Source of the DNA: Planctomycetia bacterium
Lineage (GTDB): Bacteria > Planctomycetota > Planctomycetia > Pirellulales > UBA1268
DNA length: 38,291 bases
Reading direction: 5' to 3'
Assembly: GCA_021414115.1 (NCBI GenBank)
Contig: JAIOPD010000041.1
Coordinates: 1-38,291 of the forward strand
Shown here piece after piece: positions 6,609 through 22,781 of the stretch. Numbering within the stretch: position 1 is the first letter of the stretch; each line of letters begins with the position of its first letter. Made by a program: the position numbers and the translations under genes. The notes under the pieces are model-generated. The model was not told the origin of the DNA, did no database searches, and worked only from the letters and a program-made list of their open reading frames with translations.

Positions 6609-6626
6609 GCCGCGGCGGATGGTGCA

Positions 6627-8995: not shown

Positions 8996-10750
8996 TCACT
9001 CAGGCTGCGGGACGACGGGCAGCACGATCTCGCGAAGAAGCCCCGGCGTTTCCGGGCCCAGCGACGCATCGGCCGCCCGCAGATCGCTCTCGGCCCGCCA
9101 AAACTCCTGCCGCGCGGTGATTTCGAGGATATCGGCCTCGAACTTCGCCTGCTCGCGGAGTGTCACACGGAGGATGTCGCTCCGCCCGAGCCGGAGTTGT
9201 TCCCGCTCAGCGCTCGCGACCAGCCGGGCAAGTTCTTCCCGCTTGAACGCCTGCTTGTGAAACTCATACGCCCGTTCCAGCATCGAGAAGGCGTCCTGCA
9301 CCTCGGCTTGCACCTGATCGTGGGCGTAGGAGAGCTGCCGGTCGAGCTGCATGAGCTGTGAATCGAGGGTCTGGAGTTTGCCTCGCGCATCCCGTCTCTG
9401 CGCCGGCATCTGGAAGACGAGCGAGGCCTGGAGCACCTGCCGGTCGAGACCGTTCGGACCGGAGAGCGCACTCTTGCCGAAGCCTGCGTCCTGATTGCCG
9501 AGCAGCTGGCCGTCAATGCCCGGGAGCGTCTGGTTGGCGGCCAGCCTGCGTTCGACGACGAGTTTTTCCTTCTGGAGGGCGAGCCGCTGAAACTCCGGCC
9601 GGGCCCCCATCGCCCGGGCGAGTGACTGCTCGTAGAGTTCGACGGACGGCTGCACGGGCATTGGCACCGGCCGCATCCGGCTGCGGCGGGCGAGCAGCGG
9701 CCTTCCCGACGCATCACGGTGATACAGCGAGAGATCGATCGCGGCCTGCTGCACGGCGCGATCGGCCTGGATGACGATCCCGTTTCGCAAGGCGATATTC
9801 TGCTGGTTGTCGATGCGGTCGATGTTCGCGATCACGCCGCCCCGCACCTTCAACTCAATCTGCTTGTCGCGTTCAAGGGCCAGGTCGACGAGTTGTTCCC
9901 CGGCACTGTAGCGCTCCCCGCTCCCCATCCACGCCCAGTAGGCGCGTGCGGCGGAACGCATGTAGTCGAGCCGGCTGCGGTCGATCGCGGGCTCGGCCAG
10001 TGCCACGTCGAGCTGCGCCTGCGCCCGGGTGGCTCGGGCGCGATCGATCTCGCGATTACGGGCCAACGGCATGTTGAGCCCACCGCGAAACTCCCCCGCG
10101 TCGGCGGTTTTCTGCGCCAGATTGTAGGTCGGGAAGTCGCCGAAGCCGGTCCGGAAGCCACCGAACGCGCTCATGCCACCAAACATGAACTGCTGCGACA
10201 TCCCCAGGTCGGAACGATAGTTTTCATACGTGCCCGGATTGAGCGCATTGCCTGCCATGTTGACGTTGGTGTCGAAGGCACCCATCGCGGTGGTCAGCTT
10301 GCCCGAGGCCACACCCCGCTCGCGTTCCACGGCCTGCAGGAGGGGGTAGTTCGCCAGCACACTGAGCAGCACTTCGGCCAGCGTCAGCGGCTCCGTCCGC
10401 TCGTCCAGGGCGAGCCCGGGAATGGCAAGCGACGACGACGGCACGAGCGGCGGCACGGTGGTGTCGGGCCGCTGCCGAACGGCTGGTGGAGCGGGTAGGA
10501 GTTCGGCCCCGGAAGCCGCGGGGGCGGCCGCCGGGACGGGGTCGTTACCAGGGCCATCCGGGCCCGACGCGATGGCTCCAAAAGGCGTTGAGACGCCGAT
10601 TGGTCCCAGGATCGAGTCGTCTGCGTTCAGCGGTGCCGCAGCGGCGATCAGGCAGATGGCCGCATGCAAAACGACCGCCGCGATGCCCAGGCGGCGTCGG
10701 GGGCGAGGATGCTCACATCGCGAGTCCTGAGGGCAATGGCCGCGCGTCAC
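8996..10750 (-). CDS. TolC-family outer membrane efflux protein
   Basis: The predicted outer-membrane channel of the tripartite exporter, 584 residues. After a signal segment (LGIAAVVLHAAICLIAAAAP) comes a Pro/Ala-rich linker, then the outer-membrane-factor repeats: LTLAEVLLSVLANYPLLQAV opens the first, and long helical stretches (LDYMRSAARAYWAWMG; LQTLDSQLMQLDRQLSYAHD) are characteristic. The start is uncertain: the GTG at 10750, 14 bases after the HlyD-gene stop, is the best in-frame option that leaves a signal peptide. Lengths and helices are as expected for OEP proteins (about 450-600). It is followed at 12 bases by the GT10 gene. Confidence 0.87.
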   Translation of the reverse strand: MTRGHCPQDSRCEHPRPRRRLGIAAVVLHAAICLIAAAAPLNADDSILGPIGVSTPFGAIASGPDGPGNDPVPAAAPAASGAELLPAPPAVRQRPDTTVPPLVPSSSLAIPGLALDERTEPLTLAEVLLSVLANYPLLQAVERERGVASGKLTTAMGAFDTNVNMAGNALNPGTYENYRSDLGMSQQFMFGGMSAFGGFRTGFGDFPTYNLAQKTADAGEFRGGLNMPLARNREIDRARATRAQAQLDVALAEPAIDRSRLDYMRSAARAYWAWMGSGERYSAGEQLVDLALERDKQIELKVRGGVIANIDRIDNQQNIALRNGIVIQADRAVQQAAIDLSLYHRDASGRPLLARRSRMRPVPMPVQPSVELYEQSLARAMGARPEFQRLALQKEKLVVERRLAANQTLPGIDGQLLGNQDAGFGKSALSGPNGLDRQVLQASLVFQMPAQRRDARGKLQTLDSQLMQLDRQLSYAHDQVQAEVQDAFSMLERAYEFHKQAFKREELARLVASAEREQLRLGRSDILRVTLREQAKFEADILEITARQEFWRAESDLRAADASLGPETPGLLREIVLPVVPQPE

Positions 10751-10764
10751 GAAGCGTCTGCTGG

Positions 10765-12162
10765 TCAGACCTTGATCTTCGGGGGCTTCGCTCCCTTGTC
10801 TTTGTCCTTGCCCTTGCCCTTGTCGCTCGGCGCGAGCACCGGTGGAAAGCCGTTGAGGCGGCGCCAGATCTCGTAGCCCAGCGGCACGCGGTTGAGAAAC
10901 ACCCAGCCAACCGCCTGGTTGCCCTGCCGGAGAAACTCCGCCGCCGGCCAGACGTCCCCTTCGAGCCTGGCTTCGGGCTCCACCAGCGCCCGAAACTTTC
11001 CGGTGTCGTTCGCCGCCGAGTCGACCTGCCGCACCTTTCCGCCGAACGTGCCGATCGCGAGTTCCGGCCAGCCCGAAAACTGGATCGCGGGCCAGCCCTC
11101 GAACTGCAGCCGAACGTGCGGCATCCGCCCGGTGCGATCCGCGAATGCCAGCACCAACGGCGCATCGATACCGTCGAGCATGAGCTCCACGACTCGATCG
11201 TTGGTGTCGGGCACGATGGTGCAAAGTTCGTCGCCTTCCTTTACGTACTGGCCGCCTTGGCCGACGTTTGCTGACACTCGATAGACGAATCCGTCGCATG
11301 GGGCCACGACGTTTCGGGCCTTGAATCGCTCGATCCGGTTGTCGATGTCCTGAATGTCGCGCTCGACCGTAAACAGATTTTGCTCGGCCTTCCGCAGGTT
11401 GCTGCGGGCCACGGAAATCGACGACAGGCCGTTGGCATCGGCCTGCAGCAGCATGGCTTCCTGAGTGAGCAGTGTGGCCAACGCCCGCTGGATCTCGGCG
11501 TCCGCCTTGTCGGTGTCGGTCTGGGCGCGGTCCGACCGCATCCGCGCTTCGTCGCGGCTGAGCCGGCTCTCGAGGCCGCCGAATTCGGGATTGGTGAAGA
11601 GGTCTTCAAACGTCTCATACCTGTTCTTCTCGAACGTCAGGGCGAAGTCGGTGTTGGCCTTCGACTGCTTCGCGACTTCCACGGATCGCCGCGCCGCTTC
11701 ACGATTCGCCTCCGCCGCCTTCACCGCCGCACTTCGGGCCGATTCCTGTGCCTTGGCAGCCGCACTGAGCTCCGCCACTTCGTCGCGGGCGGCCACAAGC
11801 CGCTCGGCGAGGAATGCCCGTTGCGCCTGGAGCCTGGCCGCGAGCTCAGGATCGTTATCTTCGATATCGACCACCGGATCGTTCATCTTCACGCGGCTTC
11901 CCTCGACCACGTGCCAGGTGCGAACTTGGCCCGAAACGCGGGCCGTCAGCACCTGCATTCGCTCGGTTGGGGAATATGCGGTGACTGTTCCCCGACACAT
12001 GACGGTCTGTTGCCAGGGCACGAAGGCGAGGAGGAATGGCGTGGCCAGGAAAAGCAGGAAGAGGAGGCGGGAGAGGGTGTTCACAAATCGGGGTGTCGCC
12101 GCGCGTACAAGCGCCGAGCTCTGCGGACCGTCACCGGGATGTTTTGAATGCTTGAGCGTCAT
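10765..12162 (-). CDS. HlyD-type periplasmic adaptor (membrane fusion) protein
   Basis: A 465-residue adaptor linking the inner-membrane ABC protein to the TolC channel. One membrane span lies at about residues 33-50 (LLFLLFLATPFLLAFVPW), then a lipoyl half-motif (MCRGTVTAYSPTERMQVLTA). A long Ala/Glu/Arg-rich helical hairpin region (about 105-290) follows, with the second lipoyl half (RNVVAPCDGFVYRVSANVGQ) and a beta-barrel/tail. The C-terminus is Lys-rich (KGKGKDKDKG). The ATG at 12162 overlaps the ABC-gene stop as ATGA, favouring this start over one 24 bases upstream. The complete ABC-HlyD-TolC order fits a type I secretion or peptide export operon. Confidence 0.92.
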   Translation of the reverse strand: MTLKHSKHPGDGPQSSALVRAATPRFVNTLSRLLFLLFLATPFLLAFVPWQQTVMCRGTVTAYSPTERMQVLTARVSGQVRTWHVVEGSRVKMNDPVVDIEDNDPELAARLQAQRAFLAERLVAARDEVAELSAAAKAQESARSAAVKAAEANREAARRSVEVAKQSKANTDFALTFEKNRYETFEDLFTNPEFGGLESRLSRDEARMRSDRAQTDTDKADAEIQRALATLLTQEAMLLQADANGLSSISVARSNLRKAEQNLFTVERDIQDIDNRIERFKARNVVAPCDGFVYRVSANVGQGGQYVKEGDELCTIVPDTNDRVVELMLDGIDAPLVLAFADRTGRMPHVRLQFEGWPAIQFSGWPELAIGTFGGKVRQVDSAANDTGKFRALVEPEARLEGDVWPAAEFLRQGNQAVGWVFLNRVPLGYEIWRRLNGFPPVLAPSDKGKGKDKDKGAKPPKIKV

Positions 12163-13814
12163 GACCACTCCACCGTCCGGTCGCACCGGTTCTTGATGTC
12201 GTCACGGGCCGTCACGATCACGAGCGTCCACGGCGCCGCGCGGTCGAAGAGCGAGTCGATCAGTTCCGGACACGTCCGAAGGTCGAGGCGATCGAGCATT
12301 CCGTTGATCAGCAGCAGCCGCGGACGCCCGGCGATCGCCCGGGCGAGCGAAAGCCGCGAGGTGTCGTTCGTCGACAGGGGCAGGCCGTCGGAGGCGAGCG
12401 GGGTGCCCACCCCTTCGGGCAGGCGGGCCACGGTATCGGCGAGCCCCACCATCTCCAGTGAGCGGCGAATGTGCGCCGCCGACAGATCGGTCCGCCCCAC
12501 CCTGATATTGCCGGCGACGGTGTCGGCAAACGTCTCGGCCTGACCGACGTAGGCGAGCTGCAGCCGGGTCTGGGGCCTGTCGAGCGATCGCGCGTCGAGC
12601 CCGTCGAACTCGAGCAGTCCCACCGCCGGCACTCGCAGCAGCGCCAGTGTCTCCATGAGTAGGGTTTTACCGCTGCCCGAGGGGCCGCAGATAGCGATCC
12701 GCTCGCCCGGCTGAATGTCGAGCCGCCGCAGCGCTGCGGTATCGGTCTGGCTGCCGCCCGTCCGGATCACTCGCAGTTCCGCGACCACCTGCATCGGCCG
12801 GTCGCTCGGCGGCAGCGACTCACCCCCTTCGCGCTCGAGCGGCAACTGGTCGATCACACCGAGTTTGTCGAGCGAGGCCTGAAGGTCGTAGAAGGTCTCG
12901 ATGTATTTTCCGCTTTTCGAGATCGCGGCCAGCACCAGGGCCACGATCAGTTCGCCGGCCACGAGCTGTCCGAGCGTCAGCTGCCTGTTGATCACGAGCC
13001 AGCCACCGAGCCCCAGCAAGACGGTCATCGCTACGGCCTCGAGCAGAAATGCGAAGAGCGTCTGCCGCCAGACCACGCGAAAATGCTGCCGCCGAGCGAG
13101 CACGTAGGCATCGGCCAGTTCGTCCGCCCGCTGATGGGCGAGTTCGCCGCCGCGGCCGAACCGAAAGGTGTGTGGGCACTTCGCGAGTTCTTCGAGCCAT
13201 GCGGCCACGTCGAACTTCGCGTAGCTCTCCGCGATGCTCGATTTCACGCCACCGATTCCCAGCGCAAACAGCAGGAAACACACGAGCACGACCATCACCG
13301 CCGCAAAGGTGAGCAGGTAGGGGTGATAGAAGGCGAGCACGGCAAGGCCGACGACCGTGATCATGACCACGCCGATGCCGTCCACCAGCAGCGTGGCGAG
13401 CGCCTTTTGCACCGACGCGACCTCGAAGAAACGGTTGACGATGTCGGTGGGATTGCGGCCGTCGAACGACTCCATCTCGGCGCGGGCGAAGTGGTCGGCA
13501 AATGCATCGGCCGTCCGCACGAAGAAACGTCGCTGCAGGCATTCCACCACATACATCTGGATCGCCCGCAACACGGCCGAGAGCGACAGGAAGCCGAACA
13601 TCACTCCCGCCAGCACGATCACCGGCCAGAGTTGCACGCCAAACGCCACGGTGTTGACGAGCGCCTCGATGGCGGCCGGCGTGACGATCGACAGCACGCC
13701 GACGGCCACGGCGAACATGACCACGGTCCCGATGTCGCTGCGTTCGAAACGCAGCGCGTCCGTCAGCCGTTTCCACGGTCGCTTCCCGGCTCCGCCATGA
13801 TGCGTGTCTGCCAT
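12159..13814 (-). CDS. ABC exporter half-transporter with degenerate ATPase domain
   Basis: A 551-residue type I exporter. The membrane domain is at about 30-310 (hydrophobic stretches IGTVVMFAVAVGVLSIVTPA and TVLLGLGGWLVI). The nucleotide-binding domain is at about 345-551. Walker A is intact (GPSGSGKT, 377-384) and a Q-loop is present (YVGQ, about 422-425). The signature motif LSGGQ reads LSTND (480-484). Walker B ends LLLINGM, so the usual Asp and catalytic Glu are Asn504 and Gly505. The H-loop reads TARD in place of TH. This should bind nucleotide but hydrolyse it poorly, unless other residues compensate or a partner ATPase exists. No second ABC gene lies in this operon. The ATG at 13814 follows an AGGAAG site. 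Confidence 0.93.
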   Translation of the reverse strand: MADTHHGGAGKRPWKRLTDALRFERSDIGTVVMFAVAVGVLSIVTPAAIEALVNTVAFGVQLWPVIVLAGVMFGFLSLSAVLRAIQMYVVECLQRRFFVRTADAFADHFARAEMESFDGRNPTDIVNRFFEVASVQKALATLLVDGIGVVMITVVGLAVLAFYHPYLLTFAAVMVVLVCFLLFALGIGGVKSSIAESYAKFDVAAWLEELAKCPHTFRFGRGGELAHQRADELADAYVLARRQHFRVVWRQTLFAFLLEAVAMTVLLGLGGWLVINRQLTLGQLVAGELIVALVLAAISKSGKYIETFYDLQASLDKLGVIDQLPLEREGGESLPPSDRPMQVVAELRVIRTGGSQTDTAALRRLDIQPGERIAICGPSGSGKTLLMETLALLRVPAVGLLEFDGLDARSLDRPQTRLQLAYVGQAETFADTVAGNIRVGRTDLSAAHIRRSLEMVGLADTVARLPEGVGTPLASDGLPLSTNDTSRLSLARAIAGRPRLLLINGMLDRLDLRTCPELIDSLFDRAAPWTLVIVTARDDIKNRCDRTVEWS

Positions 13815-13977: not shown

Positions 13978-14235
13978 TCAGGCTGCCGTGATCTCGACCT
14001 TCGCCGTGAAGCCGATGCGTTTGAGAAGGTCCTCGCAATCATCCCACGTCAATCCAAATTCCTTGACGTCGGCCACGCCCAAACGGGCGACGACCGCTGC
14101 GAGATCCGTAGATTCCGCTTCGGCGAACTCCTCTTCACGAAGAGCTTCTTCCGCCCACGCCACGAGGGCGTCGAGGCTGATCTCGTGCCGCAACCATGCC
14201 CCTATTTTTTCCGCCACGACGTGCCGGGTAATCAT
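13978..14235 (-). CDS. Small acidic protein, second gene of a two-gene module
   Basis: 85 residues, acidic and probably helical: ISLDALVAWAEEALREEEFA, DLAAVVARLGVADVKEFGL, TWDDCEDLLKRIGF. From memory similar small proteins occur next to the same partner in planctomycetes and cyanobacteria, but I know no established function. Its ATG overlaps the stop of the preceding gene (ATGA), so the two are translated together. The size, acidity and coupling resemble an antitoxin, but this is inference only. Confidence 0.75.
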   Translation of the reverse strand: MITRHVVAEKIGAWLRHEISLDALVAWAEEALREEEFAEAESTDLAAVVARLGVADVKEFGLTWDDCEDLLKRIGFTAKVEITAA

Positions 14236-14483
14236 GGTGGCGACTCCTCCACGCGGCGATGCCCGAAATCCTGCGGAAACTTCTCGTGTACTTCAACGAG
14301 CCGGTTTTTCGAGTCGTATATTTCCTGCCAAAACCGCAGCGTTTGCTCCGCGGCATCGACTTCTTTGAGATAACGCGCCGTCCAACCGAGTTTTCCGCTA
14401 ACAACCATGAAGTATAGCCTGCCGCCATGGGCGAGCGTCCGCCAACTGCCGAACTTCCGTTCGTTTTGGCCACGGGCTGTCAT
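14232..14483 (-). CDS. Small basic protein, first gene of a two-gene module
   Basis: 83 residues: ERKFGSWRTLAHGGRLYFMV, VSGKLGWTARYLKEVDAAEQ, TLRFWQEIYDSKNRLVEVHE, then KFPQDFGH. The pattern suggests a compact beta-rich fold with aromatic and basic residues. I do not know a named domain for it; the combination with the downstream small acidic protein is one I associate with a conserved, uncharacterised pair. Overlap with the next gene is 4 bases. Possible toxin-like component (inference). The module lies between repeat copies F and G. Confidence 0.72.
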   Translation of the reverse strand: MTARGQNERKFGSWRTLAHGGRLYFMVVSGKLGWTARYLKEVDAAEQTLRFWQEIYDSKNRLVEVHEKFPQDFGHRRVEESPP

Positions 14484-18910: not shown

Positions 18911-20818
18911 GTGTGCGGCATCTGCGGAGTCATTAGCGCGGAGCGAGGCCGGGTGGAACCCGCCGTGCGGCGGATGATGCAGGCGATGATTCATCGCGGC
19001 CCCGACGACGACGGCTACGAGGAGCTGCCGATGGGCGGCGATGAATCGGGCCCCGTCGCCGGATTCGGTTTTCGCCGGCTGTCGATCCTCGACCTCACCT
19101 CGGCGGGCCATCAGCCGATCTTCAACTCCTTCACTGGCGACTGCCTGATCTTCAACGGTGAGATCTACAACTTCCGCTCCCTGCGGTCCGAGTTGCAGCT
19201 CCGCGGGACCCTCTTTCGCGGCACGAGCGATTCGGAGGTGCTCCTCCAGGCCCTGTCCACGTGGGGCGAGGCCGCGCTCGAGAAGCTCCAGGGCATGTAT
19301 GCCTTCGCCTTTTACGAGGCCAAGACCCGCCGCATCCTGCTGGCACGCGATCCGCTGGGCATCAAGCCGCTGTATGTCGCCAGCCTTCCCAATCGGTTCG
19401 TGTTTGCGAGTGAAATCCGGTCGGTCCGGGTATCCGGTCTCGTCCCGGATGACCTCGACATGGGCGGCATCGCCGGCATGCTGGCCTACGGTGCGGTCCA
19501 GTCGCCGCGCACGATCTACGAACACATCCGCTCGTTCCCGGCTGGCAACTCGCAGTGGCTCGATGCGGGCGTAGTCTCCGGCAGCCCGCAAGCCCCATCC
19601 CGCCGATATTGGAACTTCCCCGCCCACCCGCAGACCGCCACCGACGTCCCGACCGCGGCCGCCCATGTGCGGCAACTGCTGCACGATTCGGTGCTCCGCC
19701 ACCTCGTCGCCGACGTACCGGTGGGTGTGTTCCTCTCGGCGGGGATCGACAGCACGATAATCGCTTCGTGCGCCCGGGAGTTCACGCCGCAGGTGACGGC
19801 CTTCACGGTCGGCTTTGGCGCCGTGCATGGGCAGGATGAAGTGACGCTGGCGTCGGAGACCGCCAGGGCGCTTGGCATGAAGCACGTGGCCGTTGAACTC
19901 GACGCGAACAACATGCCCGAGAAATGGCAAGACTGGATCGCCGGCATGGATTCGCCGAGCATCGACGGCTTCAACACCTACGTCGTGAGCCGTAGGTTGG
20001 CGGCCGAGGGAGTGGTGGTCGGCCTGTCGGGCCTGGGCGCCGACGAACTCTTTGGCGGGTATCAGACGTTCGACCGGGCGCCGCGGTGGTCGAAGCTGCT
20101 CCGAGCAATGTCGTTCATCCCATCCGGGATGAGAACCAGCGTGATTCGAAGGCTCGGTGAACTCGACGGCCGCACCGGAGCTTTCGAGAAGCTTGCCGAC
20201 CTCGTCGCCGGGGATCCGAGCGTGGCCGGGATCGCGCTCTCGCTACGGCGGGCGATGCCCAACCGGAGCCTCAGTGCGCTCGGCTTCTATCCAGGTTGCA
20301 CGGGCCTGGGTGTCAACTATCTCGATGCCCGTTCCGACACCGGCGCCGCCGCCACGCTCGACGGCGACGGCTTCAACACGGTCGCCCGCATGGAGATGAC
20401 CCACTACATGGGCGACACGCTCCTGCGCGACACCGACACCAACAGCATGCGGCAGTCGCTCGAGGTCCGCGTGCCGTTCCTCGACACTCCCGTCGTCGAC
20501 TATGTCTCGTCGCTGCCCGGCCACATCAAGCGACATGCGAGATGTTCGTCCAAGTCGTTACTTCGGATGGCGTGCGCTAAGGCGATCCGCGACGACGTCG
20601 CCCGGCGCCCCAAGACCGGTTTTACACTGCCGATGGGCGACTGGATGCGGGGAGAAATGCGGGAGTCGTGCGAGGCCGCCATCGGCCAGCTCGAACGTGT
20701 CTCGTTCCTGGAGGGTGCCGAAGTCCGGCGGATCTGGAACTCTTTCGTAACCGACAGCCGGTCGGTGCACTGGTCGCGGCCGCTGGCGCTCGTGGTGCTC
20801 GGCTCCGCCATCGGCTAG
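18911..20818 (+). CDS. asnB: Asparagine synthetase-like glutamine amidotransferase (copy 1)
   Basis: A 635-residue class II amidotransferase/ATP-dependent synthetase. It starts at the GTG at 18911, so that Cys2 (CGICG) becomes the N-terminal nucleophile. Glutaminase motifs: RGPDDDGY (29-36), FRRLSILDL (54-62), IFNGEIYNF (80-88), GTSDSEVLLQA (104-114). The synthetase PP-loop at 276-281 reads SAGIDS, with Ala in place of the usual Gly of SGGxDS. Later motifs are GLGADELFGGY and RVPFLDTPVVDY. Members near glycan loci often amidate sugars or act in polymer assembly and do not make asparagine, so the substrate is open. It is 31 bases upstream of a paralogue. Confidence 0.93.
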   Translation: MCGICGVISAERGRVEPAVRRMMQAMIHRGPDDDGYEELPMGGDESGPVAGFGFRRLSILDLTSAGHQPIFNSFTGDCLIFNGEIYNFRSLRSELQLRGTLFRGTSDSEVLLQALSTWGEAALEKLQGMYAFAFYEAKTRRILLARDPLGIKPLYVASLPNRFVFASEIRSVRVSGLVPDDLDMGGIAGMLAYGAVQSPRTIYEHIRSFPAGNSQWLDAGVVSGSPQAPSRRYWNFPAHPQTATDVPTAAAHVRQLLHDSVLRHLVADVPVGVFLSAGIDSTIIASCAREFTPQVTAFTVGFGAVHGQDEVTLASETARALGMKHVAVELDANNMPEKWQDWIAGMDSPSIDGFNTYVVSRRLAAEGVVVGLSGLGADELFGGYQTFDRAPRWSKLLRAMSFIPSGMRTSVIRRLGELDGRTGAFEKLADLVAGDPSVAGIALSLRRAMPNRSLSALGFYPGCTGLGVNYLDARSDTGAAATLDGDGFNTVARMEMTHYMGDTLLRDTDTNSMRQSLEVRVPFLDTPVVDYVSSLPGHIKRHARCSSKSLLRMACAKAIRDDVARRPKTGFTLPMGDWMRGEMRESCEAAIGQLERVSFLEGAEVRRIWNSFVTDSRSVHWSRPLALVVLGSAIG

Positions 20819-20849
20819 GCTCGGGGCTCCCCCCCCAGAGGCAGCCCTG

Positions 20850-22781
20850 ATGTGCGGTATCGCTGGCGTCCTTAGTCACACGTCAGGGGCCATTGAGCCC
20901 GCCGTGCGCCGGATGATGCGGGCGATGGTCCACCGCGGCCCCGACGACGAGGGCTACGAGCATTTTTCGCTGGGCGTTGATTCCGGCGGACCGGCGGTCG
21001 GCTTCGGCTTCCGCCGCCTGGCGATCATGGACCTCTCGCCGCTCGGCCATCAGCCGATGATCAATCAGGCCACCGGCGATGCCATCATCTTCAACGGCGA
21101 GATCTACAACTTCCTGGAGATCCGCCGCCGGCTCGAGGGCCTCGGCTGCGAGTTCCGCTCCACGGGCGACACCGAAGTGTTGCTCCAGGCGCTCTCGCAG
21201 TGGGGCGAGAAGGCGCTCGACGAACTCGACGGCATGTTCGCCTTCGCCTTCTACCATGCGGCCTCGCGGCGGGTGCTGCTCGCCCGCGACCCGCTGGGCA
21301 TCAAGCCGCTCTATATCGCCCGCGCGGGCGGAGCCATCGTGTTTGCCAGCGAGGTGCAGGGCGTGCTGGCCTCGGGGCTCGTCCCCGACGATCTCGACCC
21401 CGCGGGCATCGCCGGCTTCCTGGCATATGGCTCGCCACAGGATCCCCTCACGGTCCACAAGCACATCCGCTCGATGCCCGCGGCCACCCTCGAATGGCTC
21501 GACGCCGGCTCGCTGGCCGGTCGCAGCCCAAGTCGCCGTCGCTACTGGCGGCTGCCCGCGACGCAGCCCTGGTGTGCCGAAGCGACCGCCGTTGGCCGTC
21601 TGCGGGAAGAACTTGCCGACTCGGTCCGACGGCAATGCGCTTCCGATGTGCCGCTCGGCGTGTTTTTGTCGGGCGGCATCGACAGCGCCACGATGGCAGC
21701 GCTGGCGGAGCCGGATCAGGGGCCGCCCCAGACATTTGCGGTTGGCTATGAGATCCCCGGGATGGCCGACGAGACGGCTGCCGCCGCCGAAACCGCCGAG
21801 TTTCTCGGCACGCGGCATTTTCAGACAATCGTGGACAACGACTGGGCCATCATGCAGTGGACGGAGTGGCTGAAGGCCGCTGACCGCCCGAGCATCGATG
21901 GCCTTAACACCTACATCGTCAGCGGCGCCGTCAAGGATCGCGACATCACCGTGGCCCTGTCGGGCCTCGGGGCCGACGAACTCTTCGGCGGCTATCCGTC
22001 GTTCCGCAGAGTCCCGCGGGCACGGCTGGCGCTGGCGGCGATCGCCTGGCTGCCCCGGGGCCTCCGCCGGGCGGTCGCTTCGAAAGTGCTCGCCGCGATT
22101 CCGGCCCGGAGGCGGGCCAAGGCGATCGACCTCGTCTCGAGCGGCACATCGGCCGTCGAACTCACGGCGCTTTCCCGCCGGGTGATGAGCGATGATTCAA
22201 TGCGGCAGTTCGGCCTCGACGCCCGGGCGCTTGGGCTCTCGCCCCTCTACTTGGCCCCCGAAGCCCACGACGTGTTTGCCCACACTCCCCGCAACTCATT
22301 CGAAGGCGTCTCGCAGGCCGAGTTGTTTCTGTACATGAACAACACGCTCCTGCGGGATTCCGACATCAACAGCATGGCCCACTCGCTGGAAGTCCGCGTG
22401 CCGTTCCTGGGTCGGCGGCTCGTGGATTACGCCGGCAGCCTGCCGAACTCCGTCCGCCATCCGAAAGCTGCTGCGCCCAAACACCTGTTGCGCCGGGCCA
22501 TCGCCGACAAGCTCCCGCCATCGGTGTTCAATCGGCCGAAGACCGGGTTTACGCTGCCGTTCGGTGCGTGGATGTTTGGCCCGATTCGGGACCAGTGCGA
22601 GGCCGCGATCGACGTTCTGCGCACCTGCTCGGCGCTCGACGGTTCGGCTGTCCGTCGGGCCTGGGACCGCTACGAATCGCACCCGGGCCAAACCCACTGG
22701 TCGCGGCCCATGACGCTCGTGGTGCTCGGGAGTTACCTCGCCAAGCAGACGAACGTCTCGGGGCACGAAGCGACAGGCTAA
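20850..22781 (+). CDS. asnB: Asparagine synthetase-like glutamine amidotransferase (copy 2)
   Basis: A 643-residue paralogue of the preceding gene with long identical blocks (for example IEPAVRRMM/VEPAVRRMM, FNGEIYNF, LLARDPLGIKPLY). Cys2 is the expected nucleophile. The PP-loop is canonical: SGGIDS at 274-279. GLGADELFGGYPSFRRVPRA and KTGFTLPFGAWM follow. The start ATG is preceded by GAGGCAG. Tandem duplication followed by divergence is evident. Together with the glycan locus across the IS630 remnant, an amidation role in surface polysaccharide is plausible; true asparagine synthesis is the alternative. Confidence 0.94.
   Translation: MCGIAGVLSHTSGAIEPAVRRMMRAMVHRGPDDEGYEHFSLGVDSGGPAVGFGFRRLAIMDLSPLGHQPMINQATGDAIIFNGEIYNFLEIRRRLEGLGCEFRSTGDTEVLLQALSQWGEKALDELDGMFAFAFYHAASRRVLLARDPLGIKPLYIARAGGAIVFASEVQGVLASGLVPDDLDPAGIAGFLAYGSPQDPLTVHKHIRSMPAATLEWLDAGSLAGRSPSRRRYWRLPATQPWCAEATAVGRLREELADSVRRQCASDVPLGVFLSGGIDSATMAALAEPDQGPPQTFAVGYEIPGMADETAAAAETAEFLGTRHFQTIVDNDWAIMQWTEWLKAADRPSIDGLNTYIVSGAVKDRDITVALSGLGADELFGGYPSFRRVPRARLALAAIAWLPRGLRRAVASKVLAAIPARRRAKAIDLVSSGTSAVELTALSRRVMSDDSMRQFGLDARALGLSPLYLAPEAHDVFAHTPRNSFEGVSQAELFLYMNNTLLRDSDINSMAHSLEVRVPFLGRRLVDYAGSLPNSVRHPKAAAPKHLLRRAIADKLPPSVFNRPKTGFTLPFGAWMFGPIRDQCEAAIDVLRTCSALDGSAVRRAWDRYESHPGQTHWSRPMTLVVLGSYLAKQTNVSGHEATG

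Follow-up and report, generated by a model that had tools for sequence, protein, structure and literature searches.

Conserved loss of ATPase motifs in a planctomycete HlyB-type exporter family linked to inorganic-carbon genes

A HlyB-type ABC exporter with a catalytically dead nucleotide-binding domain (NBD) was characterised in a planctomycete genome and in its relatives. The loss of the motifs, its family-wide conservation, purifying selection, the operon with an HlyD-type adaptor and a TolC-type outer-membrane factor (OMF), the fold, and linkage to inorganic-carbon genes are demonstrated. With moderate confidence, this protein (hereafter pseudo-ABC) is regarded as the pseudo-ATPase of a tripartite complex that works without ATP hydrolysis and serves inorganic-carbon supply, most likely by the passage of bicarbonate. 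ATP hydrolysis defines ABC transporters, and a large, old and selected exporter family without a catalytic site raises the question of whether ABC exporters can work without hydrolysis.

Gene and operon

The window, i.e. the whole analysed stretch of 38,291 nucleotides, contains the gene as the first of an ABC-HlyD-OMF operon. The open reading frame (ORF) runs from an ATG at 13814 to a stop codon at 12159-12161 (551 aa); the coordinates given in the first-pass annotation were retained and the strand was corrected to minus. In a Pfam search, ABC_membrane and ABC_tran together spanned the entire protein. The coupling to HlyD and TolC genes noted earlier was confirmed: the stop codon of the ABC gene and the start codon of HlyD overlap in ATGA (12159-12162), and next comes an OEP/TolC-type gene whose start codon is uncertain (GTG 10750 or TTG 10669). 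Both partners expected of a type I secretion system (T1SS), an HlyD-type adaptor and an OMF, are thus present. Genes and domains are as follows.

12159..13814, minus strand: HlyB-type ABC exporter with catalytically dead NBD (pseudo-ATPase), 551 aa (Pfam, motif alignment, AF2 fold)
10765..12162, minus strand: HlyD-type periplasmic adaptor (PF13437), kept in 131/155 loci
8996..10750, minus strand: TolC-type outer-membrane factor (OEP, PF02321), kept in 135/155 loci
12849..13778, minus strand: transmembrane domain (TMD), residues 13-322, six long helices in the AF2 model; the conserved part of the family
12168..12788, minus strand: nucleotide-binding domain fold, residues 343-549 (PF00005; AF2 pLDDT mostly at least 90)

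A dispersed repeat of 67 nt occurs at window positions 1380, 13891, 14629, 16192 and 18651, and copies of 89 nt at 6624, 7741 and 7872, in both cases with a core like GGAAGCCCCAAGCGCGAGCGCGGGGAATACGG; one copy of this repeat sits just upstream of the ABC gene. Also upstream are two small overlapping ORFs, 13978-14235 (minus strand, 85 aa) and 14232-14483 (minus strand, 83 aa), which have no Pfam match and resemble a toxin-antitoxin pair in layout only. At 18956-22408 lie two neighbouring asparagine-synthase-like genes with 1.9 kb spacing, which share blocks of about 74-83% identity.

Loss of the catalytic motifs

The following residues were located in the NBD by sequence and alignment; all earlier residue calls and numbering (Walker A, Q-loop, LSTND, Asn504/Gly505, absent H-loop His) were correct.

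12663..12686, minus strand: Walker A GPSGSGKT, residues 377-384, intact here; lost in 26/115 relatives (counted per sequence)
12540..12551, minus strand: Q-loop YVGQ, residues 422-425 (Gln425), intact here; Gln in 21/115 relatives
12363..12377, minus strand: degenerate signature LSTND (for LSGGQ), residues 480-484
12300..12317, minus strand: degenerate Walker B LLLING, residues 500-505, with Asn504 and Gly505 for Asp-Glu
12291..12293, minus strand: Asp508, family-specific and near-invariant (112/114)
12207..12209, minus strand: Ala536 at the position of the H-loop His (TLVIVTARDD)

The functional NBD motifs required of a type I secretion ABC protein (LSGGQ, DE, H) are therefore missing, and this holds for the family. 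An intact LSGG[QE] was found in none of 115 aligned members. The catalytic Glu is lost in 112/114 and the H-loop His in 113/114, so that only a few members retain one catalytic residue (Glu in two, His in one). The Walker A Lys is kept in 94/115 members and the Walker B Asp in 99/114. Asn504 is limited to 13/114 members, the others mostly retaining Asp, and by this alignment it is a late change within the clade of the window protein. For comparison, 19 other ABC exporters from the phylum, three of them from the window's genome, all keep LSGG[QE] (reading SGGQ or SGGE) and the His; 18 have Asp-Glu, and the remaining one has Asp-Asp.

Distribution and family boundaries

Pseudo-ABC is present in 30/60 relatives and in 193/396 genomes of the order. 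Elsewhere it was found in one additional family of the class and in other families across the phylum (f38, f39, f49, f60, f78). The sampling is weighted heavily towards two large families of the order. With the family profile, members score at least 666 bits, and the next-best ABC exporters reach at most 175. This gap was the basis for assigning membership and marks pseudo-ABC as a discrete family; the sample contained no canonical intermediates. A pattern scan across GTDB, limited in reach to close relatives, yielded planctomycete-type MAGs. The window's genome has a single copy of the gene, and the next match there is 25% identical. Genome G048 carries two copies of the operon (contigs C10 and C15; L073 and L077), each followed by its own HTH-DabB-DabA cluster. 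Gene calls in high-GC loci were made mechanically.

The first-pass annotation had named orthologues with canonical motifs as the result that would point to sequencing error or recent mutation. The closest orthologue (locus L040, 86% identical) and all others are without the functional residues, and the orthologues in 193 genomes together with the aligned motifs of 115 members rule out both explanations. The annotation "ABC transporter ATP-binding protein" probably misstates the nature of this gene, which half of the order's sampled genomes carry.

Selection and predicted fold

Mean pairwise identity in the pseudo-ABC family is 53% for the TMD and 41% for the NBD, with the NBD higher in 1.2% of pairs. 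In the canonical exporters, a mixture of paralogues, the values are 22% and 50%, with the NBD higher in every pair. Median dN/dS for 20 close pairs is 0.06 for the TMD and 0.10 for the NBD. Because the usual order of TMD and NBD conservation is reversed and the dN/dS of the NBD is this low, purifying selection acts on the domain, though for a property other than hydrolysis. Full-length frames and dN/dS of about 0.1 rule out a decaying pseudogene. The earlier view of a gene "selected and not decayed" is borne out by family-wide conservation, the dN/dS of the altered domain, the single copy and the conserved operon.

N436, A491, R492 and P498 are retained in the family and are common to canonical exporters. 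Asp508 is new to the family and stands in place of the Ser/Ala of the canonical DEATS motif (Ser in 16/19 canonical exporters, Ala in 3/19). Family-specific near-invariant residues of the TMD include E91, Q94, K137, E196, K200, R241, K300, K303 and K317, which by comparison with known exporters would lie in cytoplasmic helix extensions.

For the window protein and the long-form relative L092, the AF2 models had mean pLDDT of 83.5 and 83.3, respectively, and the top PDB match of both was HlyB of the HlyB/D complex. The window protein has a six-helix exporter TMD fused to an NBD, as in type I secretion ABC proteins. Since the L092 model aligns full length to HlyB and PCAT1, the extra N-terminal domain of the long form is taken as C39-like; no conserved Cys was found in the alignment consensus of this domain. 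It is predicted in most relatives and is missing from the window protein, having been lost in its clade.

Inorganic-carbon genes and regulators at the loci

Neighbouring genes were clustered without bias over 156 non-redundant loci. The ABC-HlyD-OMF operon is conserved (155, 131 and 135 loci, respectively). After OMF and HlyD, the clusters were an NhaR-type LysR regulator (32 loci), a small winged-helix protein (23), DabA (11), DabB (11) and PEP carboxylase (PEPC; 8). A direct search within 9 kb found DabA at 12 loci, PEPC at 8, beta-carbonic anhydrase (beta-CA) at 7, SulP at 4 and PurK at 4, SulP and PurK being identified from sequence by the analyst and not by Pfam. Expected by chance, from per-genome copy numbers in 39 genomes, were 0.19 for DabA, 0.17 for PEPC and 0.71 for beta-CA. 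Counted by clades (defined at 60% ABC identity), 15/55 have an inorganic-carbon neighbour vs 1.04 expected (Poisson P ~5e-13, only a guide as the clades are still related).

The carbon gene varies from clade to clade and often lies immediately upstream of the operon, in the same orientation. The order DabB-DabA-ABC-HlyD-OMF has a gap of 9-242 bp (L211, L112, L218, L220) and PEPC-ABC-HlyD-OMF one of 16-153 bp (L219, L115, L110, L124, L099, L096); CA-ABC-HlyD-OMF was found at L111 and PurK-ABC-HlyD-OMF at L069. The closest orthologue locus carries divergent DabBA. Linkage to carbon-uptake or bicarbonate-using genes was thus found in relatives and not in the window, where no inorganic-carbon gene lies beside the operon; DabA, PEPC and carbonic anhydrases of the window's genome are on other contigs. 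An inorganic-carbon gene lies within 9 kb in 26/156 loci. Because most loci, and the window, are without one, the functional connection may lie in a wider regulon.

In many loci the NhaR-type LysR gene is divergent upstream of the operon. At L266 6698-8319 (contig C46) of the window's genome, a beta-carbonic anhydrase gene, whose product has an apparent export signal at its N terminus, overlaps one of the two NhaR paralogues of this genome. This suggests a role for the NhaR-type regulator in sensing or controlling inorganic carbon in these bacteria. The small winged-helix protein adjoins DabB in DabAB loci and elsewhere lies directly upstream of pseudo-ABC (loci including L073, L077, L211, L218, L220 and L223); it is a candidate shared regulator.

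Proposed mechanism and alternatives

Within a tripartite complex of the HlyB/HlyD/TolC type that does not hydrolyse ATP, pseudo-ABC would form the inner-membrane part. The working part would be the transmembrane dimer docked onto HlyD and the OMF, and the NBDs may persist as a folded scaffold or lock beneath the coupling helices. Members that have Walker A perhaps bind ATP as a static ligand or gate. We infer the lack of hydrolysis in vitro and the stoichiometry of the complex. "Another energy source" (or none) best fits among the options that had been raised for this protein.

We also infer the substrate and driving force of the complex. Bicarbonate supply is the most economical role because the linked genes have CO2/bicarbonate as their shared reactant. 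Most probably, bicarbonate, or a molecule needed to use it, would cross the envelope down a gradient or the membrane potential, and the conduit would act beside DabAB, SulP, carbonic anhydrase and bicarbonate-consuming enzymes. In its most specific form, a former ABC exporter turned into a trans-envelope bicarbonate conduit from the inner membrane to the OMF, driven by gradient or potential and not by ATP, the proposal is speculative and rather unlikely. Against a passive conduit stands the Walker A motif kept by most members, which a purely passive channel does not need. Proteins or drugs are the usual cargo of HlyD/TolC complexes; we know of none that carries bicarbonate, nor of any precedent for a non-hydrolytic ABC protein within such a tripartite complex. 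The open-access literature yielded nothing on a dead planctomycete ABC exporter or its carbon link. If true, the proposal would describe a new class of planctomycete system for taking up or balancing inorganic carbon; the operon's association with DabAB, PEP carboxylase and carbonic anhydrase makes it a testable claim on their bicarbonate acquisition.

A minor but serious possibility is that the complex exports an anaplerotic product or an unlinked protein and that the inorganic-carbon genes are neighbours only via a shared regulon. PEPC makes oxaloacetate, and NhaR-type and small HTH regulators are found at these loci. However, CO2/bicarbonate is the only common reactant that the analyst could name for DabAB, beta-CA, SulP, PEPC and PurK, and no conserved linked substrate gene was found among the neighbours; a secreted substrate may be encoded elsewhere. 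The probabilities attached to the readings overlap here, in that this one accepts the pseudo-ATPase conclusion and differs in substrate.

It is unlikely that the protein binds ATP without hydrolysing it, as a nucleotide sensor or an ATP-gated conduit. The Walker A Lys and Walker B Asp do exceed the hydrolysis residues in conservation. Yet 26/115 members are without an intact Walker A, those with readable flanks (e.g. L070, L106, L111) retain the same operon, and no member keeps the signature, the usual contact to the opposing ATP. Because of the Walker A loss, the nucleotide sensor proposed earlier was rejected as a family-wide role.

Power from an unlinked canonical ABC exporter, with pseudo-ABC as the degenerate half of a heterodimer or as a structural dimer in a mixed HlyB/HlyD-like complex, is distinctly unlikely. 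It is common for heterodimeric exporters to have one degenerate site (PMC7756269), and because six HlyD are matched by three HlyB dimers in the HlyB/HlyD complex (PMC11026475), dead and live dimers could share one adaptor. However, signature and catalytic Glu are both lost in the same NBD, so that pairing with a normal partner would leave both composite sites non-canonical. No canonical or conserved ATPase partner was found at the loci: generic (ABC-2-type) ABC ATPases lie near 11/155, which looks like chance for so large a family, the chance expectation being an estimate and not measured. The unlinked candidate tested, an MsbA-like exporter (C100), is universal, occurring in 36/36 genomes whether pseudo-ABC is present or not, and the window's genome has just three other PF00664 exporters. 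The earlier suggestion of an unlinked ATPase thus lacks support.

An active, unorthodox ATPase using other residues is very improbable: the fold is intact and Asp508 is near the active site in sequence, but signature, catalytic Glu, His and usually Gln are lost together, and Asp508 shows no sign of reaching the gamma-phosphate.

Comparison with known systems

The closest known systems include the HlyB/HlyD/TolC-type T1SS (TIGR01846, TIGR03375 LssB). Pseudo-ABC shares with it the TMD+NBD architecture, the fold (its top PDB match), an operon that also holds HlyD and OMF and, in most relatives, a predicted C39-like N-terminal domain. It differs in the family-wide catalytically dead NBD, in having no linked substrate, in the inorganic-carbon neighbourhood and in the loss of the N-terminal domain in the window clade. 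Scores are far below the NCBIfam cut-offs for TIGR01846 (HlyB; 144 vs 726 bits) and TIGR03375 (LssB; 141 vs 693). PCAT1 and the NHLM bacteriocin exporters (TIGR03796, TIGR03797) have the same exporter fold and, as predicted for the long forms, a C39-type N-terminal domain; in contrast to these, pseudo-ABC has no conserved Cys in that domain, a dead NBD and no linked peptide.

Planctomycete SecA_DEAD-associated loci are likewise HlyD/OEP modules without an ordinary ABC engine; they encode a SecA_DEAD protein and no ABC homologue (PMC4452313), and as a different locus they were ruled out as the same system.

Heterodimeric ABC exporters (TM287/288, TmrAB, TAP) also tolerate and conserve the loss of catalytic residues. 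These keep one canonical site, whereas pseudo-ABC can form none and has no linked partner.

CFTR is an ABC protein turned anion channel. It keeps one hydrolytic site and is single-chain, without adaptor or outer-membrane factor. In both, the ABC-exporter fold would no longer pump, which for pseudo-ABC is proposed; the likeness is one of behaviour and not of kinship, and CFTR provides a precedent for bicarbonate conduction.
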